A DNA stretch of 56,393 bases, from the IMG/VR virus record IMGVR_UViG_3300018476_000015, positions 1-56,393 of that record; one strand, 5' to 3'. This document shows, one piece after another, positions 192-21,204 of this stretch. The position numbers and the translations under genes were made by a program. This DNA comes from a virus. The notes beneath the pieces are model-generated. The model was not told the origin of the DNA and made no database searches. It saw only the letters and a list, made by a program, of their open reading frames with translations. The stretch's first letter is position 1; each line of letters opens with the position of its first letter.

Positions 192-246
192 TTGCGGTTG
201 CACCCACGACCTGGTATACTCTCTTTGCGGGCGGGGACGTGCCCCG
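192..246 (+). promoter_or_regulatory. Early promoter cassette 1 with leader hairpin
   Basis: TTGCGG at 192-197 and TATACT at 215-220 are 17 bp apart. The spacer carries the conserved CCACGACCTG. CGGGG/CCCCG arms at 232-246 enclose the loop ACGTG, starting about 12 bases after the -10 box, so the hairpin would be at the 5' end of the mRNA. It drives the genes from 265 to 1554. Confidence 0.85.
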
Positions 247-264
247 ACCGCGAGGAGGGTGCCC

Positions 265-417
265 ATGGAATGCATCTGCTTGAAGTGCCTGGCCCGGGAG
301 GTGTCCTTCATCCACTTCACGGTGCGCATGAAGTCCGAGCGCCGGGCGCTGCGCCGCGCCGGCGAGGAGCGCGCCGCCGCCCTGGCCGCCTTGGTGCGCC
401 ACGAGGTGTACCGCTAA
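265..417 (+). CDS. Small Cys-rich protein of unknown function
   Basis: 50 residues beginning MECICLKCLAREV. The first gene behind early promoter cassette 1, with GAGGAGG about 8 bases before the ATG, which fixes the start. Three cysteines in the first eight residues (CxCxxC) could bind a metal or form half of a zinc knuckle; the rest is a basic, Ala/Arg-rich helix. The stop TAA overlaps the next start (TAATG), suggesting translational coupling. No family recognised. An early small regulator or host-takeover protein is only an inference from position. Confidence 0.7.
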   Translation: MECICLKCLAREVSFIHFTVRMKSERRALRRAGEERAAALAALVRHEVYR

Positions 418-791
418 TGGCCCGCCACAAGAAGGTGGTCGAGCCCTCGGTCTACGTCTACTACAACGAGGCGGCCGAGACCTACTGGCTGATCGAGGAG
501 ACGCCCGAGCGCGCCGGCGGGCAGGGGCGCAGCTACCGCGAGGACGGCTTCCGCGTCCCCTTCGAGGAGCGGGGCGAGGAGGCGGCGTTCGCCCGCGCCG
601 CCCAGTGGCTGGGCTGCGACCGCTTCGACCTCGACATCGCCCACCTGGCCAACGACCCCGACCGCGAGGAGACGGACGCCTACGGCTCGCCCATCCCCCA
701 GGAGAACTACCGCTGCACCGTCGATGTCCGCAGCCAGGAGTTGACCGCCCACCTGGCCGAGATTGCCGCCCGGAAAGAGAGCAGCCGATGA
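417..791 (+). CDS. Hypothetical protein, 124 residues
   Basis: Starts at an ATG sharing a base with the upstream TAA. The product (MARHKKVVEPSVYVYYN...) has aromatic beta-type segments (VYVYYN, TYWLIEE) and an acidic C-terminal half ending in a helix rich in Ala and Glu. It has no transmembrane segment or recognisable catalytic motif. It is the second gene of the cassette 1 operon and overlaps the next start as ATGA. Coding is supported by GC3 bias and tight coupling; the function is unknown. Confidence 0.7.
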   Translation: MARHKKVVEPSVYVYYNEAAETYWLIEETPERAGGQGRSYREDGFRVPFEERGEEAAFARAAQWLGCDRFDLDIAHLANDPDREETDAYGSPIPQENYRCTVDVRSQELTAHLAEIAARKESSR

Positions 792-1339
792 CCGACACCA
801 CCACCGCCCGCAAGCACTACGTCGAGCCCGCCGGCACCGTCTACCCCGAGACCGAGTGGACCCCGCTCGACCCGAGCACCGACAACCACAAGGCCCTGCT
901 GGCCGAGTGGACGGACGCCGCGCGCAAGCGCTACGCCGAGCACCAGGGGCGCCGGGCCCAGGGCTCCCTGGCCATCAAGCTGGAGGCCGAGCGCACCCTG
1001 CGCCTGCTGTTCCTCGTGCGCTGCGAGCACCAGGACGCCAAGGACCTCCGGGCCCTGTGGGAGGAGAGCCGGGACAAGGTCGAGGGCGTCCGCCAGCAGC
1101 GCGACGAGGCGCAGCGCGAGCGCAACCGCCTGACCGAGCGCGTTGCCATCCTGGAGCAGTCCCTGGGCGAGGCCCTGGACGAGGTGGAGAAGCTGCGCCA
1201 GGCCGGCCGCGCCAACGCCGCCCTGGCCAAGGACCTGAGCACCGCCGGCAACGGGCTGGGCAAGCGCCTGGTGGCCCTGACCGAGGCCATCCTGGCCGCC
1301 GCCGACGAGCACGGCCTGAGAGAGGAAGCTGGAGCGTGA
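788..1339 (+). CDS. Coiled-coil protein of unknown function
   Basis: 183 residues. The N-terminal third is mixed; residues of about 60 to 160 are a long charged helix with heptad-like spacing (EESRDKVEGVRQQRDEAQRE, then NRLTERVAILEQSLGEALDE), so a coiled-coil dimer is likely. It overlaps both neighbours (ATGA in, GTGA out). Similar coiled-coil proteins recur at 7647, 8168 and 9591 at the ends of other early operons, which suggests a repeated early module rather than an enzyme. No named family can be assigned. Confidence 0.7.
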   Translation: MTDTTTARKHYVEPAGTVYPETEWTPLDPSTDNHKALLAEWTDAARKRYAEHQGRRAQGSLAIKLEAERTLRLLFLVRCEHQDAKDLRALWEESRDKVEGVRQQRDEAQRERNRLTERVAILEQSLGEALDEVEKLRQAGRANAALAKDLSTAGNGLGKRLVALTEAILAAADEHGLREEAGA

Positions 1340-1554
1340 ACGAGGTAACCCTGCCCGACGAGTACACCGACGACCCGCCCGGGGTGGGGGTCAACGACCC
1401 CATCACCCTGCGCGACGCCCTGCGCCTGGCCGTGGCCGAGCGCGACAAGGCCATCGAGCGGGCCGAGCGCTGGGAGAAGGCCTACGGGCGCCTGGAGGCC
1501 AAGCTGGCCAACGCCCGGATCAAGACCCGAGCCCTCGCCGGCGCCCTGGACTAG
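1336..1554 (+). CDS. Small helical protein, paralogue of the 8168 gene product
   Basis: 72 residues from a GTG inside the preceding stop (GTGA). The C-terminus RLEAKLANARIKTRALA closely matches the C-terminus of the product at 8168-8413, and 33 bases are identical between the two genes (1492-1524 and 8351-8383). Both are the last gene of an operon and are followed at once by a new early promoter. This looks like duplication or recombination between operon ends. The function is unknown; probably a coiled coil. Confidence 0.65.
   Translation: MNEVTLPDEYTDDPPGVGVNDPITLRDALRLAVAERDKAIERAERWEKAYGRLEAKLANARIKTRALAGALD
1492..1524 (+). repeat. 33-bp direct repeat, copy 1 (copy 2 at 8351-8383)
   Basis: An exact 33-base match with 8351-8383, in the same reading frame in both genes and encoding LEAKLANARIK. 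Flanking bases diverge quickly, so this is either the best-conserved core of a gene duplication or a recombination tract. Confidence 0.85.
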
Positions 1555-1569
1555 CCCCGTCCGCAGCCC

Positions 1570-1627
1570 TTGCGGTTCAACCCACGACTTGGTACACTTG
1601 GAGAGCCGGCGGGACGTGCCCGCCGGC
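1570..1627 (+). promoter_or_regulatory. Early promoter cassette 2 with leader hairpin
   Basis: TTGCGG 1570-1575, 17 bp, TACACT 1593-1598. A perfect 9-bp stem (1605-1613 with 1619-1627) encloses the loop ACGTG. It drives 1643 onward. Confidence 0.85.
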
Positions 1628-1642
1628 GAAGGAGCAGGGCCC

Positions 1643-1897
1643 ATGAGCGAGCGCAGCATCGACCCCGACGCCGGCATCGCGGACGACGACGTGCACACCC
1701 ACTACGAGGAGTTCGAGGACCTGGAGGCCGACCGCGCCGAGTGGGACGACGGCTCCGACGAGGGCGAGGACGACGACCTGCCGGTCTGCCCCGAGTGCCA
1801 CGGCTACCTGATCCCCCTGGGCAGCCTGGGGCGCGTCGACCACTTCCGCTGCCGCGCCTGCGGCGCCGATAGCTGCATCGTCCGGGGAGCCCGCTAG
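1643..1897 (+). CDS. Acidic zinc-ribbon protein
   Basis: 84 residues. The first 45 are strongly acidic (for example EEFEDLEADRAEWDDGSDEG). The C-terminal half has two CxxC pairs, CPEC and CRAC, about 20 residues apart, the layout of a zinc ribbon. The start is the ATG behind AAGGAGCAGGGCCC, first in the cassette 2 operon; the TAG overlaps the next GTG. Acidic zinc-ribbon miniproteins in phages often bind host transcription or DNA enzymes, but here this is only an inference. Confidence 0.75.
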   Translation: MSERSIDPDAGIADDDVHTHYEEFEDLEADRAEWDDGSDEGEDDDLPVCPECHGYLIPLGSLGRVDHFRCRACGADSCIVRGAR

Positions 1898-2370
1898 TGG
1901 CCTTTCGCTTCGCCCTCCCCACCCCCATCGGCACGCCGGTGCGCGTCTACCGCAACCTGCACCCCACCAAGCCCACCTGGTCGATCCAGGCCAAGGTGCG
2001 CATCCCCGGCACGCGGCGCCACACCTGGAAGGTGGTGGGCTGGTCGGACAACCTGGTGCTGGCCGACGCCGGCTTCCAGGTCTACGAGGCGGGGCTGCGC
2101 CGGGTCCTGGCCACCGGCGTCAAGAACGTGCACGCCTACGTCCTGGGCACCCTGGCCAAGGTGGGCTACCCCCTGGACGACGGGCTGGGGGTCTACGCCG
2201 ACCGGGTCAAGTACGACCCCCGCCGGCGCCTGCCCTACTTCTTCTCGCCGGCGTACCGGGACGTGCGCGTCGACGGCGCCCCCGGCGTCGTGCTGAACGA
2301 GCGCGGGGAGGTCTGGACGCGCCAGACCGCCCCCAGGATGATCGAGGAGGCCGCCCATGCCGAAGTTTGA
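1897..2370 (+). CDS. Hypothetical protein, 157 residues
   Basis: Starts at a GTG overlapping the upstream TAG. The sequence is mixed alpha/beta and basic (for example PTKPTWSIQAKVRIPGTRRH and DRVKYDPRRRLPYFFSPAYR), with no membrane segment and no metal-binding motif. It lies in the cassette 2 operon between a zinc ribbon and further small proteins and overlaps the next gene by 14 bases. No family recognised. Confidence 0.7.
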   Translation: MAFRFALPTPIGTPVRVYRNLHPTKPTWSIQAKVRIPGTRRHTWKVVGWSDNLVLADAGFQVYEAGLRRVLATGVKNVHAYVLGTLAKVGYPLDDGLGVYADRVKYDPRRRLPYFFSPAYRDVRVDGAPGVVLNERGEVWTRQTAPRMIEEAAHAEV

Positions 2371-2617
2371 GGCCCAGGTCAGCGTGCAGATCACCCGCCA
2401 GTACGAGGTCGTGCTCCAGGTCGAGGCCCTCGATGAGGACGAGGCCCGGGACAAGCTGGAGCACGAGGCCCTGGGGATGAAGCAGCGCGACCTCGACCGC
2501 TTCGTCGGGGGGGCGACCAACCCCAGCAGCTACTACGACGGCGAGATGACCGTGCTCGACCACATCGGCCAGGTCGAGGAAGTGCCCGAGACCGAGGAGG
2601 AGACCGCCCATGAGTGA
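2357..2617 (+). CDS. Hypothetical protein, 86 residues
   Basis: Begins MPKFEAQVSVQITRQYEVVL, a beta-rich N-terminus followed by a helix with DEDEARDKLEHEAL; this strand-strand-helix layout resembles small DNA-mimic or ferredoxin-like phage proteins, though nothing specific is recognised. It is very acidic at the C-terminus (EVPETEEETAHE). It overlaps both neighbours (14 bases upstream, ATGA-type downstream), with GGAGG 6-7 bases before the start. Confidence 0.7.
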   Translation: MPKFEAQVSVQITRQYEVVLQVEALDEDEARDKLEHEALGMKQRDLDRFVGGATNPSSYYDGEMTVLDHIGQVEEVPETEEETAHE

Positions 2618-3101
2618 CCCGAGCCAGTTCTACTACGCCAAGTTCGACCCCAAGCAGCGCCCCTTCGTCTACATCGTGGGGCCCGTCCCGCCGGCGGCCG
2701 GCTTCAACGGGGGCGGGCACCGGGCCCTCTCCCTGAGCGACCGCGACGCTAACAGCACCGACGACCTGGAGGCGCTGGCCCTCGCCGGGGTGCTGGACAC
2801 CGAGCCCGTGGTGTTCGACGGGGCGCCGCCCCAGCGCACGCCGCACCCCCGCGCCCACTACCACCGCTGGCGCCTCGGGAGCGACGAGTACGTCTACCAC
2901 GCCCACCCCGAGGAGCGGGACTTTCCGGGGCACAAGCACTTCCACCTGGACGGGCACGCCATGTACTACGTGCCCCTGGCCGCCGCCGATCCCCCGCCGG
3001 AGCCCACGAGCGAGCCGCCGGCCAGCGAGCCCGACGACGACGAGTGGTTCGTGCCGGGCCCCGGCGGCGGGTACCTCGGGGACCCCAGGGACCGCCGATG
3101 A
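2610..3101 (+). CDS. Hypothetical His-rich protein, 163 residues
   Basis: The middle of the protein has many histidines (HPRAHYHRW, YVYHAHPEERDFPGHKHFHL), possibly a metal site, and the last 50 residues are Pro/Glu/Asp-rich and probably disordered. It overlaps its neighbours by ATGA-type junctions in the cassette 2 operon. No family recognised. Confidence 0.7.
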   Translation: MSDPSQFYYAKFDPKQRPFVYIVGPVPPAAGFNGGGHRALSLSDRDANSTDDLEALALAGVLDTEPVVFDGAPPQRTPHPRAHYHRWRLGSDEYVYHAHPEERDFPGHKHFHLDGHAMYYVPLAAADPPPEPTSEPPASEPDDDEWFVPGPGGGYLGDPRDRR

Positions 3102-3316
3102 CCCGCGTCTCAGAGCAGCTCTGGGTCTGCCGGTGGCCGGCCGACGTGAACGACCTGGATTGGGCACTCTACGCGTTTGCGCCCGACCTGACGCCCAAGC
3201 AATTCGACGCGCTGCGCCGGATGCTGCTGGCCCTCGACCGGAGCGACGAACCGCCGCGCCGCCGGCGGGCGACCCGCACGCCCACCCCTACGGAGACGAA
3301 CGATGAAACGCAGTAG
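3098..3316 (+). CDS. Hypothetical protein, 72 residues
   Basis: Starts inside the preceding stop (ATGA). The N-terminal 50 residues contain a probable helix pair (ALYAFAPDLTPKQFDALRRM) and the tail is Arg/Thr-rich and basic (PPRRRRATRTPTPTETND), suggesting nucleic-acid contact. Last confident gene of the cassette 2 operon. Function unknown. Confidence 0.6.
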   Translation: MTRVSEQLWVCRWPADVNDLDWALYAFAPDLTPKQFDALRRMLLALDRSDEPPRRRRATRTPTPTETNDETQ

Positions 3317-3395
3317 ACACCGGGGGCTCACCCGAAGCGCAGGCGCTGCGCCCCGCCGGCGCTTTACCAACCCGACCGAATGGACAGACGGTTGA
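3303..3395 (+). CDS. Possible 30-residue basic peptide
   Basis: An ATG at 3303 lies inside the end of the previous gene, preceded by GGAGACGAACG, and opens 30 codons to a TGA at 3393-3395. The peptide is basic (MKRSRHRGLTRSAG) and ends just before the next promoter's -35 box. Codon use is less biased than in its neighbours. It may be real but could be chance. Confidence 0.3.
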   Translation: MKRSRHRGLTRSAGAAPRRRFTNPTEWTDG

Positions 3396-3396
3396 T

Positions 3397-3425
3397 TTGC
3401 CGTTTGGACAACGTCATGCTACAGT
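3397..3425 (+). promoter_or_regulatory. Promoter for the DUF6192-like gene
   Basis: TTGCCG 3397-3402, 17 bp, TACAGT 3420-3425 preceded by TGC (an extended -10 feature). It lacks the ACGTG hairpin and the CCACGACC spacer of the cassette family, so it is probably controlled differently. Next start: 3449. Confidence 0.65.
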
Positions 3426-3448
3426 CCTGAGTGGAGGTACCCGCCCAC

Positions 3449-4384
3449 ATGGCAATGACGCGAACCGCCCGCGACGCACCGCTGTACGCCGAGCCCACGC
3501 TCACCCTCGACCAGGCCGCGGCCGACCTGCGCGCCCTCGTGGAGGGGGAGCGGGCGCTGGCCACCCGCACCCGGAACAACCTCCTCGCCCAGGGGGACAT
3601 CGCGCTGGCCGCCGTGCCGTCCGGGGCCCTGGGGGCGCTGGCGGTGCTGGCCAAGCTGGCCGGCCTCGACGCCCAGACCCTGCAGCACCGCTGGGAGGTG
3701 GCCAGCTACTGGCCGGTCTCCGAGCGGGGCGACCGGCCCTGGGTCGTGCTGGAGACCCTGGTCACGGTGAAGGACCCGCAGGAGAACGCCCGGCTGCGGG
3801 CGCTCTTCGACGCGCCCAACCCCGACCACCCCCAGGGCAAGTGGACGCGCGCCGCCGTCCGGCGCGTCCGGGGCCAGATCGTGGGCCACACCGGCACGGC
3901 GGCGGACGTGGCCGACCTGCCCCTGGCCGAGAAGGTGGCCGCCGTCGCCCGCCTGGTGGCCGACCCGGCCGTGCGCGACGCCGTGGCGGTGCCCGGCTCC
4001 GAGGCCGGGCTGGCCATCAACCGCCTGTCCGCCGAGCGCAACGCCAAGCTGGACGAGGCCTTCCAGGCCCGGCGGATCGAGGTCGACACCTACCTGCTGG
4101 AGAACAGCCCCACCCACGAGGGGCTGGAGGCCGCCGCGGCGGTCAACGACCTGCTGGGGCTGGCCAACGCCTTCGCCCGGGGCGTGGGGCACGCCCTGGA
4201 GCGCATCCGCGCCCTGCACGGCGACGGGCCCCTGGCCCAGAACCTGTTCCTGCGCGACGCCAACGCCCGCGCCCGCGGCGCCGTCGACCAGATCGACGCC
4301 CTGCTCGCCACCGGCCGTCCCGGGGGCGACATCGACCGCTTCCTGCTGACCGTGCTGACCGAGTCGAAGGAGGACCGCCCGTAA
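3449..4384 (+). CDS. DUF6192-like putative regulator
   Basis: 311 residues; start at ATG 3449 behind GTGGAGG. The order of motifs resembles DUF6192 proteins known from actinobacteria: an N-terminal helix with GDIALAA, then LAKLAGLDAQTLQHRWEVAS followed by YWP, where the family has a GLS..T...YRWVSSRWP-type segment, then WTRAAVRRVRGQ, and a C-terminal helical bundle. The LQHRWEVAS segment could be a helix-turn-helix. Its own promoter type sets it apart from surrounding operons, and its stop overlaps the next start (TAATG). The DUF match is from memory of the family pattern; DNA binding is inference. Confidence 0.65.
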   Translation: MAMTRTARDAPLYAEPTLTLDQAAADLRALVEGERALATRTRNNLLAQGDIALAAVPSGALGALAVLAKLAGLDAQTLQHRWEVASYWPVSERGDRPWVVLETLVTVKDPQENARLRALFDAPNPDHPQGKWTRAAVRRVRGQIVGHTGTAADVADLPLAEKVAAVARLVADPAVRDAVAVPGSEAGLAINRLSAERNAKLDEAFQARRIEVDTYLLENSPTHEGLEAAAAVNDLLGLANAFARGVGHALERIRALHGDGPLAQNLFLRDANARARGAVDQIDALLATGRPGGDIDRFLLTVLTESKEDRP

Positions 4385-4785
4385 TGCGTATGCTCGACGC
4401 CATCCGCCTGGTCGTGCCCCACATCCCCTGGGGCATCACCGACTGGTCGCAGTGCCGGTACCGCGCCGACATCGCCGCCCGCGCCGGCGTCTCCATCGGC
4501 GTGCTCGACGCCGTGGAGCGCTCCATCCGGCGCGACCTGCCCCAGTTCCCGCTGGTCTCCCACAACGCCTTCGGGCTGGGCTTCTCCACCGAGCCGGCCA
4601 TGGTAGCCGACCACCTCCGGCGCCGGGCCGGCTACGTGCTCACCGTCCTGCGCGTCGAAGAGGCCAACCTCATGCGCCACATCGAGAGCCAGGCCCTGGG
4701 GCTCACCCTGCCCGAGCAGCGGGTGGTGAAGATGGCCTTCTCGAACGCCGTCACCGCCGGCTCGATGGTGGCCCTGCCCCGGTAG
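4384..4785 (+). CDS. Hypothetical protein, 133 residues, possible HTH
   Basis: Translationally coupled (TAATG) to the DUF6192-like gene. Residues of about 25 to 60, RADIAARAGVSIGVLDAVER, read like a helix-turn-helix, and a second helical segment (RRRAGYVLTVLRVEEANLMR) follows. The pair is then closed by a strong hairpin. It could be a partner regulator of its neighbour. No family recognised. Confidence 0.65.
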   Translation: MRMLDAIRLVVPHIPWGITDWSQCRYRADIAARAGVSIGVLDAVERSIRRDLPQFPLVSHNAFGLGFSTEPAMVADHLRRRAGYVLTVLRVEEANLMRHIESQALGLTLPEQRVVKMAFSNAVTAGSMVALPR

Positions 4786-4818
4786 AATCGCCGGACTGCT
4801 TCTCTCTTTCCTCTTCTG

Positions 4819-4851
4819 CAGCGCCCCGGGTGGCCATCGCCCGGGGCGCTG
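4819..4851 (+). terminator. Strong 12-bp hairpin, probable terminator
   Basis: Arms CAGCGCCCCGGG (4819-4830) and CCCGGGGCGCTG (4840-4851) pair perfectly around a 9-base loop, 33 bases after the stop of the 4384 gene. There is no U-run after it, so termination would be non-canonical. It separates two transcription units. Confidence 0.6.
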
Positions 4852-4884
4852 TGATTCCCGGGCCTAACCTGGTACGGCCCCTGG

Positions 4885-4970
4885 TGGCCGCAAGGCGACG
4901 CCGCCCTGTAGCATGGCGCTGGCCGCCCGAACCTGCCCATGTCCGCACGTCCGCGCCCGCCCGGGCGGAC
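4885..4970 (+). promoter_or_regulatory. Weak candidate promoter and leader hairpin
   Basis: TGGCCG (4885-4890), 18 bp, TAGCAT (4909-4914) is a poor promoter candidate. A GC-rich hairpin (GTCCG/CGGAC plus CCCG/CGGG, 4949-4970) follows before the ribosome site of the 4992 gene. The rest of the 206-base gap 4786-4991 shows nothing else. Confidence 0.25.
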
Positions 4971-4991
4971 CACGCCGAGGAGGGACGCCCC

Positions 4992-6185
4992 ATGTCCGTC
5001 GCCGCCCCGCCCGCGCCCCCGTCCGCCCCGGGGGGACGCAACTGGTCGACCGGCTTCGACCGCCTGCCCCTGACCGGCCTGCACATCGCCCACGAGTACG
5101 CCCGCCCGCTGCGCCCCGGCTGGGTCGACCAACTCCGCAAGGAGTGGGACGACCTGCAGGCGGGGCCCCTGATCGTGTCCCTGCGCCCCGACCGGCGGTA
5201 CTACATCATCGCCGGCGGGCACCGCTACAGCGGGCTGTGGTCGAAGCTGGACGAGCAGCAGCGCAAGGAGACCTACGTCGACTGCTACATCTACGTCGGG
5301 CTGACGCTGAAGCAGGAGGCGATCATCTTCCACAGCCTGGACACCCAGCGCCTGCAGCACTCGGCCGGCGACCAGGTGCCCGCCCAGCGCCTGATGGACG
5401 ACCGGCGCATCCTCGACATCGACCGCATCCTGGCCACCATCCCCGCCCCGGGCGCGGCCGACCCGCTGTTCATCGACCTGCTGCCCCGCCGGGGCGACCA
5501 CAACGTCAAGGCCATCGGGGCCATCAGCGCCCTGCAGCGCTGCTACGACATGGCCGGCCCGGTGGACTTCGAGCGGGCCCTGCGGGTCATCTACGACGCC
5601 TGGATCGACCCGCCGGCGCCCATCGCCACCCCCCAGGTGCGCCCCTACACCGCCGAGTCGCTGCGCGCCGTCACCGGCGTGGTGGCCCGCTTCTGCCGGC
5701 CGGACGTGCGCCCCTACCCGGTGGTGGTCGAGGACCTGGTGGACGCCCTGCGCATCGTCACCCCCACCGGCTTCAAGGCCACCGTGCTCCAGGAGCGGGC
5801 CAAGAGCATGAACGCCCAGGCCGGGCAGGGCGAGCGGACGCTGATGCTGGCCCTGCTGGGGGTCTACAACGCCCACCTCCGCTCCAAGCGCCAGGGGCGC
5901 CGGCAGGTCGACCTGGGCCTGGTGATGACCCGGGTGCCCTGGTACCACTCCGAGACGCCCGAGGCCCCGCCCCGCAACCAGACGGCCAGCCAGCGCGCCC
6001 ACAACGAGGAGAAGCGCCGGCGCCGGGCCGAGGAGCGCAAGCGCCGGGCGGCGCAGGAGGCCATCAACCGCGCCCAGCAGGCCCCAGGGGGCTCCACAGG
6101 GCCCCAGGCGGGCCCTACGCCTCCCGGCCCGGTATCGTGGCCGTATGGCCCCCAGGAAGCGCCTCCGAGCCCGCCGGCGGACTAA
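4992..6185 (+). CDS. ParB/sulfiredoxin-fold protein (paralogue A)
   Basis: 397 residues, start fixed by GAGGAGGGACGCCCC. Residues 38-81 (RPLRPGWVDQLRKEWD ... IIAGGHRYSG) match the ParB N-terminal fold: a predicted helix that positions a substrate loop followed by the GGHR motif where ParB has GxxR. The product at 18565 has the same layout (RPIRPHWVTRLVREWD ... TLTGNHRVAA) and an identical ribosome site, so the two are paralogues. Residues 320-397 are charged and Pro/Gln-rich. In the family this fold binds or hydrolyses nucleotides and DNA. Whether this copy segregates DNA, regulates genes or nicks DNA is unknown. Confidence 0.75.
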   Translation: MSVAAPPAPPSAPGGRNWSTGFDRLPLTGLHIAHEYARPLRPGWVDQLRKEWDDLQAGPLIVSLRPDRRYYIIAGGHRYSGLWSKLDEQQRKETYVDCYIYVGLTLKQEAIIFHSLDTQRLQHSAGDQVPAQRLMDDRRILDIDRILATIPAPGAADPLFIDLLPRRGDHNVKAIGAISALQRCYDMAGPVDFERALRVIYDAWIDPPAPIATPQVRPYTAESLRAVTGVVARFCRPDVRPYPVVVEDLVDALRIVTPTGFKATVLQERAKSMNAQAGQGERTLMLALLGVYNAHLRSKRQGRRQVDLGLVMTRVPWYHSETPEAPPRNQTASQRAHNEEKRRRRAEERKRRAAQEAINRAQQAPGGSTGPQAGPTPPGPVSWPYGPQEAPPSPPAD

Positions 6186-6462
6186 GCCCGCCCCCGCTGC
6201 GCCCGCCGCCCCGCCCTACCCGGCGGGCGTAGACGACCTGCTGCCCAACGAGCGGGCCACCTTCTTCCTCGCCGTGGAGAAGCTGGCCCTCTCCGGCTGC
6301 CCGACCGACTTCGCCGTCATCCTGGTCTGGAACGCCGGCGCCTGGGCGTCCATGGCCCGGATGGTGCTCGACGCCGCCGTCGTGGATGTCGACCCGGTCA
6401 AGAAGCACGTCCGGCTCATCCCCCGCCCCGACGACCCGGTGGTGCTCACCCGGCCCTCCTGA
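6145..6462 (+). CDS. Hypothetical basic-tailed protein, 105 residues
   Basis: The N-terminal 25 residues are Arg/Lys/Pro/Ala (MAPRKRLRARRRTKPAP), followed by a compact domain (LLPNERATFFLAVEKLAL ... NAGAWASMARMVLDAAVVDV). The ATG overlaps the preceding gene by 41 bases and has no clear ribosome site, so the start is uncertain, but no later good start exists. No family recognised. Confidence 0.55.
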   Translation: MAPRKRLRARRRTKPAPAAPAAPPYPAGVDDLLPNERATFFLAVEKLALSGCPTDFAVILVWNAGAWASMARMVLDAAVVDVDPVKKHVRLIPRPDDPVVLTRPS

Positions 6463-6463
6463 T

Positions 6464-6520
6464 TTGCGGTTCAGCCCACGACCTGATATACTCTAGAAGC
6501 CGGAGGGACGTGCCCCCGGC
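6464..6520 (+). promoter_or_regulatory. Early promoter cassette 3 with leader hairpin
   Basis: TTGCGG 6464-6469, 17 bp, TATACT 6487-6492. The hairpin at 6499-6520 pairs GCCGG/CCGGC and GGG/CCC with one bulged A (6504) around ACGTG. Drives 6534-7156. Confidence 0.85.
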
Positions 6521-6533
6521 CCTGGAGGCGCCC

Positions 6534-6848
6534 ATGACCAGCACCACCAAGACCGTCAAGAACCCCTACGACGCGGCCTACTGGGACGCCCGGCGGGCCG
6601 AGCGCCTGGCCCAGGAGCGCGCCGACGCCGACGTGCACCGCGACATCGCCCTCGACTACGAGCGCCAGGCGATCCTGGCCGAGGCCGTCGAGCGCCTCGC
6701 CCGCCGGGTCGAGGCCGCCGACGCCCAGGTCGCCCAGTACGCCGCCGAGCGGGGCGTCAACCACGCCTACTACCGGGGCAAGGGCGAGGGGCTGGAGGTC
6801 GCCCTGGCCGTCCTGCGGGGCGTCATCACCGACCGGAGCGCCCGCTGA
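6534..6848 (+). CDS. Coiled-coil protein, 104 residues
   Basis: After a short Thr/Lys-rich head (MTSTTKTVKNPYDAAYWD) the chain is one long helix (RRAERLAQERADADVHRD, then AILAEAVERLARRVEAAD) ending in a glycine turn and a second helix. Start set by TGGAGGCGCCC. The first gene of cassette 3, with ATG-in-TGA overlap to the SWIM gene. Function unknown; probably a dimeric early factor. Confidence 0.65.
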   Translation: MTSTTKTVKNPYDAAYWDARRAERLAQERADADVHRDIALDYERQAILAEAVERLARRVEAADAQVAQYAAERGVNHAYYRGKGEGLEVALAVLRGVITDRSAR

Positions 6849-7156
6849 TGCTGGCCCCCGATCCGCTCGCCTCAGCGCTCCGGGCCCGCCAGCAGCGGGC
6901 CCTGGCCAAGGCCCTCGCCTGGGGGCTCCAGGGCGACGTGCAGCCCCTGGGGACGATGGCCTACGCCGTCCCCAGCCGGACCGAGCCCGGGCGCAGCTAC
7001 CGCGTCGCCCGCACCCGGCGCGCCGGCGCCGAGCACCTCATCTGCGACTGCCCCGCAGGGCTCGCCGGCGTCCCCTGCGTGCACACCGCCGCCGTCTACA
7101 TCCACCGCCTGGAGCAGCGCACCGGGGGCACGGTCACCGCCGTGCGCCCGGCCTAG
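6848..7156 (+). CDS. SWIM zinc-finger protein
   Basis: 102 residues. C66-x-C68 (LICDCPAG) followed by C77-x-H79 (GVPCVHTAAV) gives the CxCx(n)CxH signature of SWIM zinc fingers, known to mediate DNA or protein binding in SWI2/SNF2, MuDR and bacterial proteins. The N-terminal half is helical with a beta stretch (AYAVPSRTEPGRSYRVARTR) as usual before a SWIM core. Here it stands alone, without a helicase. Second gene of the cassette 3 operon. The metal site is clear; its partner is unknown. Confidence 0.8.
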   Translation: MLAPDPLASALRARQQRALAKALAWGLQGDVQPLGTMAYAVPSRTEPGRSYRVARTRRAGAEHLICDCPAGLAGVPCVHTAAVYIHRLEQRTGGTVTAVRPA

Positions 7157-7165
7157 GCTCGAGGG

Positions 7166-7222: not shown

Positions 7223-7237
7223 GCCACGAGGTCGCCC

Positions 7238-8413: not shown

Positions 8414-8415
8414 AT

Positions 8416-8473: not shown

Positions 8474-8487
8474 CCCAGGAGGCGCCC

Positions 8488-9510: not shown

Positions 9511-9511
9511 T

Positions 9512-12152: not shown

Positions 12153-12157
12153 CCATT

Positions 12158-14820: not shown

Positions 14821-14874
14821 CGCTCAATCCACGAGTGTGCTATACTGTGAGTCCCGGCGGGATGTGCCCGCCGG
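14817..14874 (+). promoter_or_regulatory. Early promoter cassette 7 with leader hairpin
   Basis: ATGACG (14817-14822, overlapping the helicase stop), 18 bp, TATACT 14841-14846 with TGC before it (extended -10). CCGGCGGG/CCCGCCGG (14854-14874) around ATGTG. Drives the recombination operon 14897-20509. The -35 differs from the other cassettes but the spacer keeps CCACGA. Confidence 0.75.
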
Positions 14875-14896
14875 CGCCGAGATGGAGGACCCGCCC

Positions 14897-15100
14897 ATGG
14901 TGATGAGCAGAGCCAAGCGCGCCGCGGGGCGCGCCGAGCAGCAGGAGCAGCACCGCGCCCTGGCGGCGCTGGTGGTGCAGCAGCGGGCCGAGCGCCCGAA
15001 GGACCCGAAGCCCGTCGCCGTGGCGACGCCGGCGCGCCGGCCGGCCCGGCGCAAGAGCAGCGGTGGCCGTGGCCAGCGGAGGCGTCCCTTTGGTCGCTAG
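14897..15100 (+). CDS. Very basic small protein, 67 residues
   Basis: A helix rich in Ala, Gln and Arg (RAEQQEQHRALAALVVQQRA) followed by a Lys/Arg/Pro tail (ARRPARRKSSGGRGQRRRPF). The charge suggests binding to DNA or RNA. It is the first gene of the operon and overlaps the next by 38 bases if the long start of that gene is used. No family recognised. Confidence 0.6.
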   Translation: MVMSRAKRAAGRAEQQEQHRALAALVVQQRAERPKDPKPVAVATPARRPARRKSSGGRGQRRRPFGR

Positions 15101-15896
15101 GGGCTGCGGATCGCGCGAGCCGGGCGGGGCCTACCTGGTGTGCGGGCTGGGGCCCGAGGGCGAGCCCATCGAGCGCTTCATCATCGACCCGCCCCGCATC
15201 GTGGACCCCGAGGCCCTGGGGATCGCCCCCCAGGGCATCACCCTCTACACCGGGGCCCCCGAGGGCCGGGACGCCCACCTGGTGGACTGGGTGGGGGAGA
15301 AGCACTACCCCAACGTGGCGGACTTCGTGGAAGAGGTGGCCCACTTCGGGTCCTCCCGGCGCATCCCCAGTACCTTCGACTTCTCCCAGTTGGGGCTGCG
15401 CTCCAAGCACGTCCTGGTGCACGCCCGGGCGGCGGTGACGCCGGCGTCCGCTATCGTCTTCGCCGGCCTGCCCGAGGTGCCGGCGGTGTCCCGGCCGAGC
15501 ACCCTGCAGCGGGCCCTGGCGCGCCAGGGGCGGGCGAACTGCCCGTTCCTGGCGGCGCACGAGATGGGGGAGCCGATGCAGACCTGCGCCGCCTGGTGGT
15601 GGGAGTGGCTGCAGCCCAAGACGGTGGTCTTCGCCTCCGACCTGGAGGCGATGGAGCGCCAGTGCACCCGCCTCGACTACGCCCCCCGCAATCTGCCGGC
15701 GCTGACCTACGCCGGGTACGCCCTGCCCGACCGGGACGTGTGGAAGCCGGACTGGCGCCCGGCAGCCTTCATGGCCCTGCCGGTGCACCGGATCGAGGTG
15801 GTGCGCGACCCGCTGGAGGGGGCGCACGAGTTGGTGGTCAAGCGCGCCCGGAAGAGCGCCCTGCAGGTACTGGAGGTGGACCTCGATGACGACTGA
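15063..15896 (+). CDS. Hypothetical protein, about 277 residues
   Basis: A mixed alpha/beta protein with segments such as YLVCGLGPEGEPIERFIIDP, EKHYPNVADFVEEVAHFGSS and LALPVHRIEVVRDPL-like beta stretches. Start is uncertain: GTG 15063 gives the longest form, but TTG 15090, 7 bases behind GGAGG, is also good. Nine cysteine or histidine pairs are scattered without a clear finger. It lies upstream of the ParB-like gene (11-base overlap) in the recombination operon. No family recognised. Confidence 0.7.
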   Translation: MAVASGGVPLVARGCGSREPGGAYLVCGLGPEGEPIERFIIDPPRIVDPEALGIAPQGITLYTGAPEGRDAHLVDWVGEKHYPNVADFVEEVAHFGSSRRIPSTFDFSQLGLRSKHVLVHARAAVTPASAIVFAGLPEVPAVSRPSTLQRALARQGRANCPFLAAHEMGEPMQTCAAWWWEWLQPKTVVFASDLEAMERQCTRLDYAPRNLPALTYAGYALPDRDVWKPDWRPAAFMALPVHRIEVVRDPLEGAHELVVKRARKSALQVLEVDLDDD

Positions 15897-17028
15897 GACG
15901 CCGGCGGCCGAACAACTCCCCCTGATCCCGGAGCGCCTGCCCACCCTGGGGGGGCTGCAGGACGTGCAACTCGACCACCTCCCCCACAACCAGGACCTGG
16001 ACGGCCCGCCCCCCAGCGCCCAACTGGTGGAGAGCATCCGCCGGTGGGGCGTGCTGGAGCCGGTGCTGGTGCGCGCCGTGGGCGGGTCGCTGAACCACGG
16101 CGACCCGGCCACGCTCATCTCCGGGCGCCGGCGGATCAAGGCCGTCCGGCTGCTCCGGGACGAGTACCGCGAGAAGGTGCGCAAGTTCAGCGAGGCCCAC
16201 CCGGGCGAGGTGCTGACCGAGGAGCGCATCCCCGGCTACCGCGCCGCCTACGAGCGCCTGCGGGACTTCCAACGGGTGCCCGTCCGGGTGGTCTCCGACC
16301 CCGAGGGGGTGCTGAACGACGGGCGCACCGAGGCCCTGCTGGTGGCCACCAACGCCGTGCGCACCGACAACCCGCAGGCCGACTTCCAGGCCCTGGCCCG
16401 ACTGCTCGACCGGCTGACGGCGGACGGCCTCTCCGAGAAGGCGTGCCTGACCGAGGCGTCCCGGGTGACCGGGCTGGCGGTGGGCACGGTCAAGCAACGT
16501 TTACGGCTGCTGCACCTGACCCCGGAGTTGCAGGACGACTTCCTGGCCGGCCGGCTGGGGTACACCGTCGCCCTGCACGCCAGCCGGCTCGACCCGGAGT
16601 CGCAGGGCGTGCTGGCCCGGAAGCTGGACGCCGGCGAGCGGGCCACCCTCGACCTGGTCAAGGACGCCAAGCGGGAGGCGGTGCGGGCGGTGCAGGTCGG
16701 GCTCTTCGACGGCCTGCCCGACGCGACCGATGCGCCCCAGGACCCCCGGGGGGCGCCCGGCCCGGCGCCCGACGCCCGGGGCCTGGCCGAGCGGGCCCAC
16801 CTGATGATCGAGCAACTCCGGGCCGTGAAGCTGCCCATCATGCAGGAGGCGGCGAGCCTGATGGCCGACCTGCTGGCGGACGTGGAGGGGCGCGACGCCC
16901 TGGCCTACGCCAACGTCGACCCGGACGCCCCGACCGCAGGCATCCCGCCCAACCTCGTGCTGGACATCGAGCCCGAGCCCGCCCCTGAGAAGCCCAAGCG
17001 GACGCGCCGCAAGAAGGTGACCGAATGA
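15886..17028 (+). CDS. ParB-like DNA-binding protein
   Basis: 380 residues. The N-terminal ParB/Srx domain shows PPPSAQLVESIRRWGVLEPV (the usual QL..SI...G...P motif) and ISGRRRIKAVRLL (78-90; the GxRR nucleotide-binding motif). A helix-turn-helix follows (LSEKACLTEASRVTGLAVGT, then VKQRLRLLHLTPELQ), as in true ParB. The C-terminal 60 residues are Pro-rich and end basic (KPKRTRRKK). No ParA gene is present nearby, so the role may be regulation or nuclease activity rather than segregation. The longest intact ParB layout of the three ParB-fold genes in the window. Confidence 0.85.
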   Translation: MTTETPAAEQLPLIPERLPTLGGLQDVQLDHLPHNQDLDGPPPSAQLVESIRRWGVLEPVLVRAVGGSLNHGDPATLISGRRRIKAVRLLRDEYREKVRKFSEAHPGEVLTEERIPGYRAAYERLRDFQRVPVRVVSDPEGVLNDGRTEALLVATNAVRTDNPQADFQALARLLDRLTADGLSEKACLTEASRVTGLAVGTVKQRLRLLHLTPELQDDFLAGRLGYTVALHASRLDPESQGVLARKLDAGERATLDLVKDAKREAVRAVQVGLFDGLPDATDAPQDPRGAPGPAPDARGLAERAHLMIEQLRAVKLPIMQEAASLMADLLADVEGRDALAYANVDPDAPTAGIPPNLVLDIEPEPAPEKPKRTRRKKVTE

Positions 17029-17789
17029 CCACCACCGAGACCGAGACCGAGACCGACCCCCGCATCGACGCCGAGACCGGCGAGGTCTTCCACGACGAGG
17101 TGGAGGACTCGCCCGCCGCCGAGTCGTCCGTCGACTACGAGCGGATCAAGAAGTGGGTGATCCAGCAGTCCGGCAAAGACTTCATCCAGTACGCCGGGCT
17201 GCTCGACCTCCTGCACCAGGTGAGTCAGGGCGACTTCACCATCACCACGAAGCTGGAGCAGGCGCCGACCAAGGAGAACGGGGAGACCGCCATCGTCTCG
17301 GCCATCGCCTGCATCGGCACCAACGACCGCTGCGCCAGCGGACTTGGGGACGCCAACCCGGGCAACGTCAGCCGGGCCATGGCCCCCCACACGATTCGCA
17401 TGGCCGAGACTCGAGCCAAGGGGCGCGCCCTGCGGGACCTCTTAAATATCCCCCTGGTGACCGTCGAGGAGTTGGGGCCCCGGGGGAACGAGGCGGCCCA
17501 GCCCCGGATGGGCCCGCCCGCCGGCGACTACGACCGCGCCGCTCCGCGCCCGACGCAGAGCACCCCCGCCCCCGTCAACACGGACGGCCTGACCGTCGAG
17601 GGCCAGTGGTATTCCCGCGACCAAATCTGGGGCTTCTTCCAGCAGCGCCGGACGCAGATGCGGGAGCGCAACCTCAGCTTCCCCAGCCCGGCCTTGCAGC
17701 GCACCAGCCCCCTGCCCCAGATCGTGGAGCAGACCCGGCAGATGCGGATGGCCATCGCCGCCGACATCGCCAAGGCCAAGCCGGCGTGA
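17025..17789 (+). CDS. Probable single-strand annealing protein (Rad52/DdrA-like)
   Basis: 254 residues. After an acidic head (TETETETD...), residues 44-150 include DYERIKKWVIQQSGKDFIQY, a central beta region, and AETRAKGRALRDLLNIPLVT, which resembles the ETRAxGRAL helix typical of Rad52-like and DdrA-like annealing proteins. The C-terminal 80 residues are Pro/Gln-rich and end in a basic helix. It lies between ParB-like and nuclease genes, a usual place for phage recombinases. A RecT or unrelated ssDNA-binding protein is possible; assignment rests mainly on that motif. Confidence 0.6.
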   Translation: MTTTETETETDPRIDAETGEVFHDEVEDSPAAESSVDYERIKKWVIQQSGKDFIQYAGLLDLLHQVSQGDFTITTKLEQAPTKENGETAIVSAIACIGTNDRCASGLGDANPGNVSRAMAPHTIRMAETRAKGRALRDLLNIPLVTVEELGPRGNEAAQPRMGPPAGDYDRAAPRPTQSTPAPVNTDGLTVEGQWYSRDQIWGFFQQRRTQMRERNLSFPSPALQRTSPLPQIVEQTRQMRMAIAADIAKAKPA

Positions 17790-17821
17790 GCCAAGTCGAC
17801 CGCATCATCCTGGAGGAGAAG

Positions 17822-18076
17822 ATGTCCACCGTCTACCGGGCCGTCATCCACTGCGACCGCCGGGACTCCGGCAAGTGCCACGGCCTGATCGAGGTGAGCG
17901 CGTCGGGCCCCCACATCGCCCCCAACGCCGTCCACCGCGCCGCCCGGGACAAGGGGTGGACGCGGGGCTACCGGGCCAGCGGGACCGTCGACGTGTGCCC
18001 CGGTTGTCAAACTCCAGAGGAGCGGGCGATGATCCGCTCCGACGCCGTGGCCGACAAGGAGGCCGTGACCCCATGA
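17822..18076 (+). CDS. Zinc-binding protein, 84 residues
   Basis: ATG 17822 sits 5 bases after GGAGG; a GTG at 17786 overlapping the upstream stop would add 12 residues. IHCDRRDSGKCHGLI and DVCPGCQTPEERAM give two Cys pairs for one zinc. A helix with VHRAARDKGWTRGYR lies between them, so the layout is that of a small ribbon with an inserted helix. Function unknown; coupled to the next gene by ATGA. Confidence 0.65.
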   Translation: MSTVYRAVIHCDRRDSGKCHGLIEVSASGPHIAPNAVHRAARDKGWTRGYRASGTVDVCPGCQTPEERAMIRSDAVADKEAVTP

Positions 18077-18537
18077 GCGACACCATCGCCGCCCCGCCGG
18101 GCTGGTACTACTGCCGGATGAAGGAGGGGGATATGCACCTCGTGCGGTACCCCATCGCCGCCTTCCGGGTGGCCGAGGGCCTGCCGGCGACGCCCCTCAT
18201 CGCCAAGCCGGGGGAGCCCGGCCTGGTGCCCCCCACCCGGGAGGACGAGGCCGCCCTGGTGGGCCTGCTCCCGCCCGACCGGGAGTGGGCCAGCTACTTC
18301 GCCTCGGAGGACCTGCAGGACGCCGCCCGGCGCCTGTTCGTCTTCCTGCACCCCCGTCAGGCCGAGGACCTCCGCGCGGCCACCGTGGCCGAGGTGGAGA
18401 TGCCCGGGGTGGGCAAGGTGCCCGTCCGGGACGCCCGCCCGCCGGCGCAGCGCTCGCAGTCCGCCGACTGGATGAAGCGCGCCTGGGGCGACACCGCCCA
18501 GCCCCGCCTCGGGGGAGGCAGCCCGCCCACCGACTAG
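18073..18537 (+). CDS. Hypothetical protein, 154 residues
   Basis: The sequence is mixed, with many Pro, and hydrophobic stretches such as ASYFASEDLQDAARRLFVFL. The C-terminal 35 residues are Arg/Ser/Gly/Pro-rich and probably flexible. It overlaps the zinc protein by ATGA and precedes the ParB-fold paralogue B. No family recognised. Confidence 0.65.
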   Translation: MSDTIAAPPGWYYCRMKEGDMHLVRYPIAAFRVAEGLPATPLIAKPGEPGLVPPTREDEAALVGLLPPDREWASYFASEDLQDAARRLFVFLHPRQAEDLRAATVAEVEMPGVGKVPVRDARPPAQRSQSADWMKRAWGDTAQPRLGGGSPPTD

Positions 18538-18564
18538 CCCAGAACCGCCCAGGAGGGACGCCCC

Positions 18565-19497
18565 ATGGCCGTACAGGAACCGCCCGCCCGCGTGTCCGTC
18601 GACCCGCTGCCCGAGCCCCGACGCCCCGGGGTGCGCACCAAGCAGCGGGTGCTCCCCGCCCGCAGCCTGCGCCCGACCGACTACGGCCGCCCCATCCGCC
18701 CCCATTGGGTCACCCGCCTGGTGCGCGAGTGGGACAAGCGCAAGCAGGGCGTGCTCCTGGTGAGCCAGCGGGCCGACGACCGCTTCTACACCCTGACCGG
18801 CAACCACCGGGTGGCCGCCAAGCTGGCCACCGGCGAGACGGAATACGCCTTCGACTGCCTGGTCTACACCGGGCTCACCCTGGCCGAGGAGGCGGCCATC
18901 TACCTCTCCCAGGACTCGGAGACCCTGCGCCACACCGTGGCCGACGACTTCCCGGCCATGCTGCTGCGGGGCGACGAGACCGCCGCCGGCGTCGACCGGG
19001 TGGTGCGCTCGCTCGACCTGACCGTGGCCCGCTACTCCGGCGACGGCTGGGCCCCCCACCGGGTCCGGGCCGTGGGCGCCCTGCTCAGCGCCTACGACAC
19101 CTGTGGCGAGCAGCACCTGTACGACGCCCTGGCCATGATCCGCACCCTGTGGGGCGACCTGCAGATCAAGCTGGGCGGGCGGACGAAGAAGACCATCTAC
19201 TCCGAGGCGGTGATCGCCAGCCTGCCGGCCTTCTTCCGCCTGTACCCCGAGGCCGAGCGGAACTGGCTCGCCCACGCCATGGCCCGCGAGGGGCTCTCCG
19301 GCTTCGAGGAGCGCTGGATCGGGCACCGCACCGCCTCGAAGAGCCGGCCCCAGGGGGGCGTGGCCATCGTCTACGGCGTGCTCTCCTGGCTGGATATGTA
19401 CAACTACGGCCGGCGGGAGCAGAACCTGCTGGACGAGACGGTGGCCCGGCGGGCGTCCAAGATGCTCAAGCGCCGGCCACGCCGGGGGCCCCGATGA
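18565..19497 (+). CDS. ParB/sulfiredoxin-fold protein (paralogue B)
   Basis: 310 residues. RSLRPTDYGRPIRPHWVTRL followed by VREWDKRKQG and then TLTGNHRVAAKLATG (79-90) matches the ParB-fold layout of the 4992 product, including the EYA/DYGRP, WV..LR.EWD and G(G/N)HR blocks and a shared YTGLTL/YVGLTL...EEA segment. The ribosome site GGAGGGACGCCCC is identical in the two genes. It lacks the Pro/Gln tail of paralogue A. The gene sits in the recombination operon. Same biochemical uncertainty as paralogue A; duplication is well supported. Confidence 0.75.
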   Translation: MAVQEPPARVSVDPLPEPRRPGVRTKQRVLPARSLRPTDYGRPIRPHWVTRLVREWDKRKQGVLLVSQRADDRFYTLTGNHRVAAKLATGETEYAFDCLVYTGLTLAEEAAIYLSQDSETLRHTVADDFPAMLLRGDETAAGVDRVVRSLDLTVARYSGDGWAPHRVRAVGALLSAYDTCGEQHLYDALAMIRTLWGDLQIKLGGRTKKTIYSEAVIASLPAFFRLYPEAERNWLAHAMAREGLSGFEERWIGHRTASKSRPQGGVAIVYGVLSWLDMYNYGRREQNLLDETVARRASKMLKRRPRRGPR

Positions 19498-20018
19498 GTG
19501 AGGTGCTGGACGACCTGGGCGACCCGGCCAGCCTGCTGCTGGCCCGGGAGGTGCGCCTGACCCGCAAGCCCCCCGCGGTGGTGCCCCCGGCGGTCTGCGC
19601 CCGGGGCCACGCCCTGGTGTGGCTCCTGGGCCCGGCGCAGCCCTTCTCCGAGGGGGAGGGCCTGGCCGCCTGCGACTGCTCCCTGCGGGGCGTCGAGGGC
19701 CGGCTGAAGAACGGCTCCCAGCCCACCCTGTGGCGCTGGGTGCCCGCCCGGCCCCGGGCGCTCAGCCCCATCTTCCCCAGCCAGAACCGGCTGGCCTTCG
19801 CCCTGGCCCTGCGCCTGCGGGCCACGATCATGGGCACCGCCGAGCCCCTGCACCCCGGGCTGGGGGACACCGCCCACCAGCGGGCCTACGTCAAGCTGCT
19901 GAGCGCCCAGGCGGCCCCGCTGGTCGAGGCCATGAAGCGGGCCCTGAACCCCAACAACGGGCGCACCGCGGGCAAGCAACGCAAGGTGCCCAAGGGCGCC
20001 ACCGAGATGGCGGAATGA
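19494..20018 (+). CDS. Hypothetical protein, 174 residues
   Basis: Contains ARGHALVWLLGPAQPFSEGE with a nearby CDC pair (LAACDCSLRG), a hydrophobic middle (NRLAFALALRLRATIM) and a basic end (NGRTAGKQRKVPKGA). It overlaps both neighbours by ATGA, between ParB-fold B and the VRR nuclease. A DNA-related role is suggested only by context. Confidence 0.65.
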   Translation: MSEVLDDLGDPASLLLAREVRLTRKPPAVVPPAVCARGHALVWLLGPAQPFSEGEGLAACDCSLRGVEGRLKNGSQPTLWRWVPARPRALSPIFPSQNRLAFALALRLRATIMGTAEPLHPGLGDTAHQRAYVKLLSAQAAPLVEAMKRALNPNNGRTAGKQRKVPKGATEMAE

Positions 20019-20509
20019 GCGCTGCCCCGCGCCGCCGGCGGAAGGCCCCAGGAATCGCCTCTGTGAGCGCCACAGAGGTCGAGCAACTGGTCTGGTCGAC
20101 GTGGCGCGAGGCCGACCTGCTGACCTACGTGGAGCGCACCGCCCGGCTGCTGGGCTACCGGGCGTACCACACCACCTTCTCGATCAAGAGCGCGGCCGGC
20201 TTCCCCGACCTGGTGCTGACCAGCGCCGGGCGCCGGCGCACCGTCTACGCCGAACTCAAGCAGGAGGGCCTCTGGCCCACGGTGGGGCGCGTCCGCAAGG
20301 AGACCGGGCGCTGGATCGAGGGCCAGACCGACTGGCTGCGCGACCTGCAGGACGCCGGCAACGAGGTGTACCTGTGGTGGCCATCCGACGCCCAGGACAT
20401 CGCCCGCATCCTGGACGACCGGGGCCCCGCCTTCCTCGGCGTCGGAGGCGTGCGCTGCGTCGAGCGCCTGGAGACCTGGCTGGAGGCCAACCCGCCGGCG
20501 GACAGGTGA
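20015..20509 (+). CDS. VRR-NUC domain nuclease
   Basis: 164 residues. After a basic head, the VRR-NUC/Holliday-resolvase-like core has HTTFSIKSAAGFPDLVLTSA, where PD supplies the first acidic residue, then TVYAELKQEG with the E-x-K pair: the PD...ExK nuclease signature. A C-terminal helix with TDWLRDLQDAGNEVYLW follows, typical of stand-alone phage VRR-NUC enzymes. Such enzymes cut branched or flapped DNA; with an annealing protein and a ParB-like gene upstream it probably serves recombination. Last gene of operon 7. Confidence 0.85.
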   Translation: MSAAPRRRRKAPGIASVSATEVEQLVWSTWREADLLTYVERTARLLGYRAYHTTFSIKSAAGFPDLVLTSAGRRRTVYAELKQEGLWPTVGRVRKETGRWIEGQTDWLRDLQDAGNEVYLWWPSDAQDIARILDDRGPAFLGVGGVRCVERLETWLEANPPADR

Positions 20510-20510
20510 T

Positions 20511-20566
20511 TTGCGGTTTGCTCCACGACCTGTTACAATAGAGAGGTCGGGGGGACGTGCCCCCCG
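20511..20566 (+). promoter_or_regulatory. Early promoter cassette 8 with leader hairpin
   Basis: TTGCGG 20511-20516, 17 bp, TACAAT 20534-20539. CGGGGGG/CCCCCCG (20548-20566) around ACGTG. Drives 20590. Confidence 0.85.
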
Positions 20567-20589
20567 CGGGACGACTGGAGGCACCGCCC

Positions 20590-21126
20590 ATGAGCAACCT
20601 CACCGCTGACCAGGTCGCCGGCCTCTTCGCGCAGCGCCTCCCGGAGACGGGCGGGTGGATCAGCGCCAAGCAGATCGAGTGGCTGCTGCGCACCGTCGCC
20701 GCCGAGAACCGCATCCCCCGCGGGCGCACCGCCTCGGGTGTCCTGGCGGACGGGCGCGAGTGGGTGGCCACCCAGTCCGGCAACGCCAACCGCGCCGGCA
20801 CCCTGCAGCTTGTCTCCGTCGCGGCGCGCGACGCCGACCGGGCCGCCGAGGCCGAGCGCCTGCGCTACGAGGCGGCCTGCCTCGCGGTCAACAACGAGGT
20901 GTCCGCCCTCCTGCTGGCCGGCAAGGTGGACGAGGTCCGGGCCCGGCTGGAGCGCTTCGCCGCCGACGAGGCGGCGCGCAAGGCCCCCGCCGCGCCGGCG
21001 TACCGCGTCTACGAGGACGGCTCCGACGACTACTGCGGGGAGGACGACCTGACCGCCCGGGCCATCGAGAACAGCAACGACTACTGGGCCTCGATGCAGA
21101 CCGCCCTGGACGAGGGCGAGCGCTAG
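20590..21126 (+). CDS. Hypothetical protein, 178 residues
   Basis: Helical, with LTADQVAGLFAQRLPETGGW, SAKQIEWLLRTVAAENRIPR near the N-terminus and a mid-region with QSGNANRAGTLQLVSVAA. The C-terminal 45 residues are acidic (EDGSDDYCGEDDLTARAIEN). Expressed alone from cassette 8 with a standard GGAGGCACCGCCC ribosome site. The function is unknown; an N-terminal DNA-binding fold is possible but unproven. Confidence 0.65.
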   Translation: MSNLTADQVAGLFAQRLPETGGWISAKQIEWLLRTVAAENRIPRGRTASGVLADGREWVATQSGNANRAGTLQLVSVAARDADRAAEAERLRYEAACLAVNNEVSALLLAGKVDEVRARLERFAADEAARKAPAAPAYRVYEDGSDDYCGEDDLTARAIENSNDYWASMQTALDEGER

Positions 21127-21155
21127 ACCCGCCCCGTCCGCTGCCCGCCGGCGGG

Positions 21156-21204
21156 GTGCGCCGGACGTGCCGTTTGCTACACTAGCCACGAAGGGATGTG
21201 CCCT
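21156..21204 (+). promoter_or_regulatory. Variant early promoter cassette 9
   Basis: GTGCGC (21156-21161), 16 bp, TACACT 21178-21183 with TGC before it. A shortened hairpin AGGG/CCCT (21192-21204) keeps the loop ATGTG, and a second ACGTG mini-hairpin (CGG/CCG, 21162-21172) lies upstream in the spacer. The start codon of the next gene follows one base later, so this hairpin overlaps the ribosome-binding zone, unlike the others. Confidence 0.6.

Follow-up and report, generated by a model that had tools for sequence, protein, structure and literature searches.

Cluster K mycobacteriophages carry 11–19 copies of short repeated elements, Start-Associated Sequences (SAS) and extended SAS (ESAS), at the starts of their non-structural genes (PMC3203893, PMC11373665). 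The SAS, GGGATAGGAGCCC, lies a few nucleotides before the start codon, overlaps the Shine-Dalgarno sequence and has GGG...CCC ends, and about half of the copies are joined to a SigA-type promoter unit, 46–47 base pairs (bp) long with an inverted repeat, which recurs in many intergenic regions (PMC3203893, PMC11373665). Promoter and leader repeats are already known from actinobacterial phages, with their function open. Here we describe a repeated promoter-hairpin cassette at the heads of early operons in the uncultivated virus IMGVR_UViG_3300018476_000015, the whole of which (56,393 bases) was analysed and is called the window below. The cassette resembles SAS and ESAS in being a repeated SigA-type promoter unit (the window has eight copies; G001, a partial relative with the record name IMGVR_UViG_3300034147_000130, has four) that carries an inverted repeat with GGG...CCC and precedes non-structural genes. 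It differs from ESAS, where the inverted repeat lies inside the promoter, in that its hairpin starts at +1, and from SAS in having a separate Shine-Dalgarno sequence and another loop. These are the nearest described elements, and what sets the cassette apart is a hairpin placed where transcription is predicted to begin. Membership of the cassette in the SAS family was rejected because the geometry differs and because GGGATAGGAGCCC is not above chance in the window, where its one match, with two mismatches against 3.2 such matches expected by chance, falls in the late region.

Nine exact matches to the core GGGAYGTGCCC lie in the window, all of them on the + strand, against a chance expectation of 0.37 (first-order Markov model, both strands). 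Eight of these cores sit in a full promoter-leader unit of about 75–85 bp, and the four in G001 bring the set to 12 copies in two phages. Each unit runs from a TTGCGG -35 across a 17–18 bp gap to an extended -10 (hexamer TATACT, TACACT or TACAAT in the window), a hairpin of 21–25 nucleotides, a Shine-Dalgarno sequence and GCCC-ATG. The original prediction, made from the window alone, had described nine such cassettes with -35 and -10 about 17 bp apart and an invariant A(C/T)GTG loop closed by GGG/CCC; the spacing holds at 17 or 18 bp in all eight units, the loop and its closing pairs are constant across copies, and the count drops to eight with the loss of the core upstream of 21206, discussed below. 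GCCC stands immediately 5' of the ATG in 11 of the 12 aligned cassettes, whereas CCC precedes just 13 of the 44 ATG starts in the window overall (at least seven of those 13 in cassettes), so GCCC is a feature of the cassette. The eight units, each listed from the first base of its -35, are as follows.

192–267, + strand: cassette 1; -35 at 192, -10 at 215, predicted +1 at 227, hairpin 227–251, core 234–244, ATG at 265; 50-amino-acid CxxC protein downstream.
1570–1645, + strand: cassette 2; -10 TACACT at 1593, predicted +1 at 1605, perfect 9-bp hairpin 1605–1627, core 1611–1621, ATG at 1643.
6464–6536, + strand: cassette 3; predicted +1 at 6499, hairpin 6499–6520 with an A bulge, core 6505–6515, ATG at 6534.
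7166–7240, + strand: cassette 4; predicted +1 at 7201, hairpin 7201–7222 with a C bulge and outer stem GCGGG/CCCGC, core 7207–7217, ATG at 7238.
8416–8490, + strand: cassette 5; predicted +1 at 8451, hairpin 8451–8473 with a U-G pair, core 8457–8467 with an ATGTG loop, ATG at 8488; ArdC-type antirestriction protein downstream.
9512–9593, + strand: cassette 6; predicted +1 at 9547, hairpin 9547–9568 with a U bulge and stem CGAGGGG/CCCCTCG, core 9553–9563, ATG at 9591.
14817–14899, + strand: cassette 7; -35 at 14817, the only diverged one (ATGACG), extended -10 at 14841, 8-bp hairpin 14854–14874, core 14859–14869, ATG at 14897.
20511–20592, + strand: cassette 8; -10 TACAAT at 20534, predicted +1 at 20546, hairpin 20546–20567, core 20552–20562, ATG at 20590.

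The hairpin is held in a nearly fixed register with the promoter. Start sites are predicted, with +1 placed seven nucleotides past the -10; the core then begins 12 nucleotides after the -10 (6 past +1) in 10 of the 12 copies and 11 or 13 nucleotides after it (5 or 7 past +1) in the other two. In 11 of the 12 the predicted +1 is a G, and in most copies this base can pair with the hairpin's final C. A hairpin had been expected 8–12 bases after the -10, and one does follow it, but the base of the stem lies 6 nucleotides after the -10 and coincides with the predicted +1; provided that transcription starts 7 nucleotides after the -10, the transcript would begin at the stem base in nearly all copies, opening with a stem-loop preceded by at most a few unpaired nucleotides. 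The proposed conserved spacer, CCACGACCTG, was partly redefined in the same way: TGn precedes the -10 in all 12 copies, so the CTG end of that spacer is an extended -10, and the 12-nucleotide stretch before the TG has 47% between-copy identity (a lower bound, 18-bp spacers being out of register) compared with 35% upstream of the -35. A separate DNA-level regulator acting on the spacer is a weak proposal.

Repeats, register, invariant apex and pairing were all observed in silico, and on these grounds the hairpin is likely an RNA structure. Averaged over pairs of copies, the core has an identity of 0.96, the outer arms have 0.75 and 0.62, and the discriminator has 0.36. When outer arms were exchanged between copies and refolded, hairpins with their own arms averaged -17.0 kcal/mol compared with -14.4 kcal/mol for those with the arms of other copies, a gain of 2.6 (permutation p=0.0002; p=0.0006 on 11 unique arm pairs); this swap test is free of alignment register and was chosen after column-wise covariation gave no signal. 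Compared with 457 other GGG-N5-CCC sites, the cassettes also have more stable outer arms (p=2e-8). Two orthologous cassettes, at 227 in the window and 44390 in G001, stand ahead of the same 50-amino-acid protein with different outer stems, and each folds about 4 kcal/mol better with its own arms (-18.2 and -15.6 kcal/mol) than with swapped ones (-13.9 and -11.5). Inspection by hand gave about three double-sided changes, at the third (C-G/G-C), fifth (G-C/A-U) and sixth (C-G/G-C) pairs, and a covariance model recovered the 12 copies at E <=4e-4, the next match being at 0.069. That the hairpin has no function and hitch-hikes in a recently duplicated promoter unit would fit with whole cassettes being paralogous and staying in place while the genes downstream are swapped, yet the flanking and interspersed positions are near background identity (0.35–0.47), the core is not, and the arms still pair, which makes this account barely credible.

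Two partial relatives place the cassette in a wider group. The capsid protein of G001 is 97% identical to that of the window phage, and the capsid protein of G002 (IMGVR_UViG_3300027874_000016), which is syntenic, is 90% identical. Between its dnaB and ParB-like genes, the place of cassette 7 in the window, G002 carries TTGCGG-17-TACCAT with no hairpin in the leader, and strong hairpins with other loops follow two of three inspected G002 promoters. Judged from these sequences, hairpins close to the promoter are a recurrent feature of the group and the AYGTG loop belongs to the branch of the window and G001. A scan of viral contigs for the span from TATACT to the core found several copies in G001 only, with single matches elsewhere that had no promoter, and a broader promoter-plus-stem scan returned G001 only. 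Scans of genome contigs gave no capsid-protein relative and one match to the element, in a Bacteroidetes contig, which, being isolated, we took for a chance match; searches based on DnaB and on tail genes added no relatives. We also observed that G002 contains long non-coding stretches at 28360–30929 and 40255–41885 with alternating repeats of the GCGGGCC and GGGAGCC types every ~22–25 bases.

Gene order behind the cassettes differs between the window and G001. The basic 50-amino-acid CxxC protein (window 265–417, G001 44427–44579) is first behind an orthologous cassette in both phages and 100% identical, compared with 40–97% for the other proteins they share; it was not found in G002. A second gene, at 9986–10201 in the window and 45676–45909 in G001 (88% identical at the protein level), is second in the cassette-6 operon of the window and first behind a cassette in G001, where the gene that follows is orthologous to window 1897–2370. 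Genes thus appear to have been reshuffled behind constant cassettes.

The same palindromic sequence could act as DNA. A phage repressor or activator might bind the imperfect palindrome from about +1 to +22 as double-stranded DNA, in keeping with the position of the site just 3' of the -10, its conserved core and the HTH_3 protein encoded at 11002–11721. Such a DNA operator is improbable, however, since the outer arms vary in compensating fashion, one-base bulges and offsets break the dyad symmetry in several copies, the AYGTG apex is conserved yet asymmetric, and the HTH_3 protein has a homologue in G002, which is without the element.

We instead suggest, with roughly even confidence, that the unit is a duplicated promoter-hairpin-Shine-Dalgarno cassette whose hairpin shields the 5' end of the mRNA and whose apex is read by an RNA-binding factor. 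The early operons of this high-GC, probably actinobacterial phage would be driven by an extended -10 promoter of the host sigma-A type, and transcription would start at the G of the hairpin base; we infer this start site, the binding protein and the direction of regulation. The 5' triphosphate would then be held in the stem, slowing 5'-end-dependent decay. A hairpin or a bound protein at the 5' end stabilises mRNA in Escherichia coli and Bacillus subtilis, and the ompA, papA and aprE leaders have 5'-terminal stabilising stem-loops (PMC3997798). The cassette resembles these leaders in placing a stem-loop at the extreme 5' end, where it would sequester the triphosphate, but they are single and have no shared loop, whereas the same apex recurs here at eight operons and stabilisation is predicted. 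Protection of the 5' end needs no invariant apex, so the GGG-AYGUG-CCC apex is probably the recognition site of a phage or host RNA-binding protein. The hairpin ends a few nucleotides 5' of the Shine-Dalgarno sequence, so a bound protein could affect ribosome loading, blocking or assisting it, and might co-regulate the translation or stability of all early mRNAs. The 50-amino-acid CxxC protein is a candidate binder by association only. A phage sigma factor that would read the unit was considered and dropped, no sigma region 4 having been found.

A purely passive stabiliser, in which the stem protects against pyrophosphohydrolase and RNase E or J with no trans-acting factor and the loop is constant through recent copying and a stable apex, seems rather unlikely. 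It would account for the paired +1 at the stem base, for the quite different loops of the hairpins at two of three inspected G002 promoters and for the known protection of mRNAs by 5'-terminal hairpins elsewhere, but stability alone needs no conservation of the kind found in the core relative to the discriminator and outer arms (0.96 against 0.36 and 0.62–0.75). The hairpin may also be a phage-wide RNA operator, with an early protein binding the 5' apex of every early mRNA and switching their translation or decay together; we offer this tentatively, as possible. It would be similar to the T4 RegA regulon in controlling many early mRNAs post-transcriptionally across the phage, with structured sites here where those of RegA are unstructured and lie at the AUG (PMC3014915). 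If true, the RNA operator would be a structured counterpart of the RegA regulon within a portable promoter cassette. Kissing contacts between loops, through their near-palindromic AYGU, are conceivable as well. An RNA structure fixed so sharply to the predicted start, its loop constant and its stem re-paired, makes the reader of such leaders directly testable, and the cassette is a compact natural promoter-hairpin-ribosome-binding-site part.

Put-like antitermination, protein binding and mRNA stabilisation were the functions put forward in the original prediction, and the last two are both still plausible. In phage HK022, early transcripts begin with the put RNA, which is longer and has two stem-loops; the cassette differs in having one 21–25-nucleotide hairpin, followed directly by the Shine-Dalgarno sequence and start codon, and in having no intrinsic-terminator-like site to overcome on the + strand in 1–20000. 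In the LoaP system the leader hairpin has a loop of the UNCG type, terminators lie downstream and a NusG paralogue takes part (PMC12691694). The cassette shares with it a small leader hairpin common to several operons, read by protein in LoaP and putatively so here, but its loop is AYGUG and neither terminators nor NusG were found. A put, nut or LoaP-type signal loaded onto RNA polymerase would suit a hairpin found in the leaders of many early operons, LoaP being recruited by leader hairpins in Bacillus. It is nonetheless very unlikely, and the put-like proposal finds no support: there is a single short hairpin per leader, the cassette stands at every operon rather than once per long transcript, no NusG domain was found in three incomplete phage records, and no intrinsic terminators were predicted in that + strand region (the search was of the intrinsic type). 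The lambda nut site combines boxA with boxB and works with N protein; by inspection, the leaders have no boxA-like sequence from +1 to the ATG. Rfam had no match above the gathering threshold in the window, with chance-level matches only around cassette 2.

Several results weigh against a protective hairpin with a protein-read apex. A column-wise covariation count on the MAFFT alignment gave no significant excess, and RNAalifold kept only the GGG/CCC pairs; we attribute the lack of column-wise signal to copies with and without a one-base bulge being out of register. Since all copies are recent paralogues and come from two genomes, independent events are few, and the p-values above do not come from independent lineages. 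G002 has no exact core, though its early region may be incomplete, and the loop is therefore not essential across the group. The explanation we prefer also depends on a predicted start and a putative binder, and the three phage records, in which no NusG domain was found, are too partial for a full binder search. The compensating outer stems of the original prediction are real, as own and swapped arms differ, but modest at about three double-sided changes; calling the covariation strong overstated it for 12 related copies from two phages, although pairing is retained. Of the checks that had been proposed, a covariance model separates the 12 copies and a covariation test by columns was not significant, and the selected RNA structure is backed by the swap test, the unusual stems, the +1 register and the re-paired orthologous stem.

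The core at 21193–21203 (+) was rejected as a ninth cassette, as it has neither a TTGCGG -35 nor an outer stem and departs from the conserved spacing. Its stem has 4 bp only, its core lies 3 nucleotides from the predicted +1, against 6 in the cassettes, its outer stem is no better than 69% of unrelated GGG-N5-CCC sites, and the covariance model did not recover it. When promoters were searched for independently of the core, 10 of the 11 found carried GGGAYGTGCCC. The exception, at 36724–36777 (+) in the window, has the same promoter and the start of the 5' arm (TTGCGGTT...TGGTATACTCTGGAGGTCGGG) and is placed antisense just past the stop of the major capsid gene, directed into it. The sequence 3' of this promoter folds as a +1-aligned stem with a different loop, possibly by chance, and no such promoter occurs at the matching place in G001; it can be read as a stray copy or as an antisense promoter.

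The window has a G+C content of 0.73, and its early region had no nucleotide relative among 50,697 phage records (megablast). Genes up to ~23.6 kb lie on the + strand and include those for a DnaB-like helicase, a replication initiator, ParB-like proteins, an L5 gp82-like protein and the ArdC-type antirestriction protein; the structural genes, among them the phrog_212 major capsid protein (36767–37759), are on the - strand. The L5 gp82-like protein and matches to DUF6192 and DUF6551 suggest an actinobacterial host. Tandem CTTAGTGCAGCCCAGTGCACAAAC repeats detected with TRF at 12530–12596, within the replication-initiator open reading frame, are possibly replication-origin iterons. A further open reading frame of >3,290 amino acids at 46518–56393 (-), 3,807 amino acids in its G001 version, resembles an internal virion protein in one part and carries a TnsA-like endonuclease domain midway along its length.

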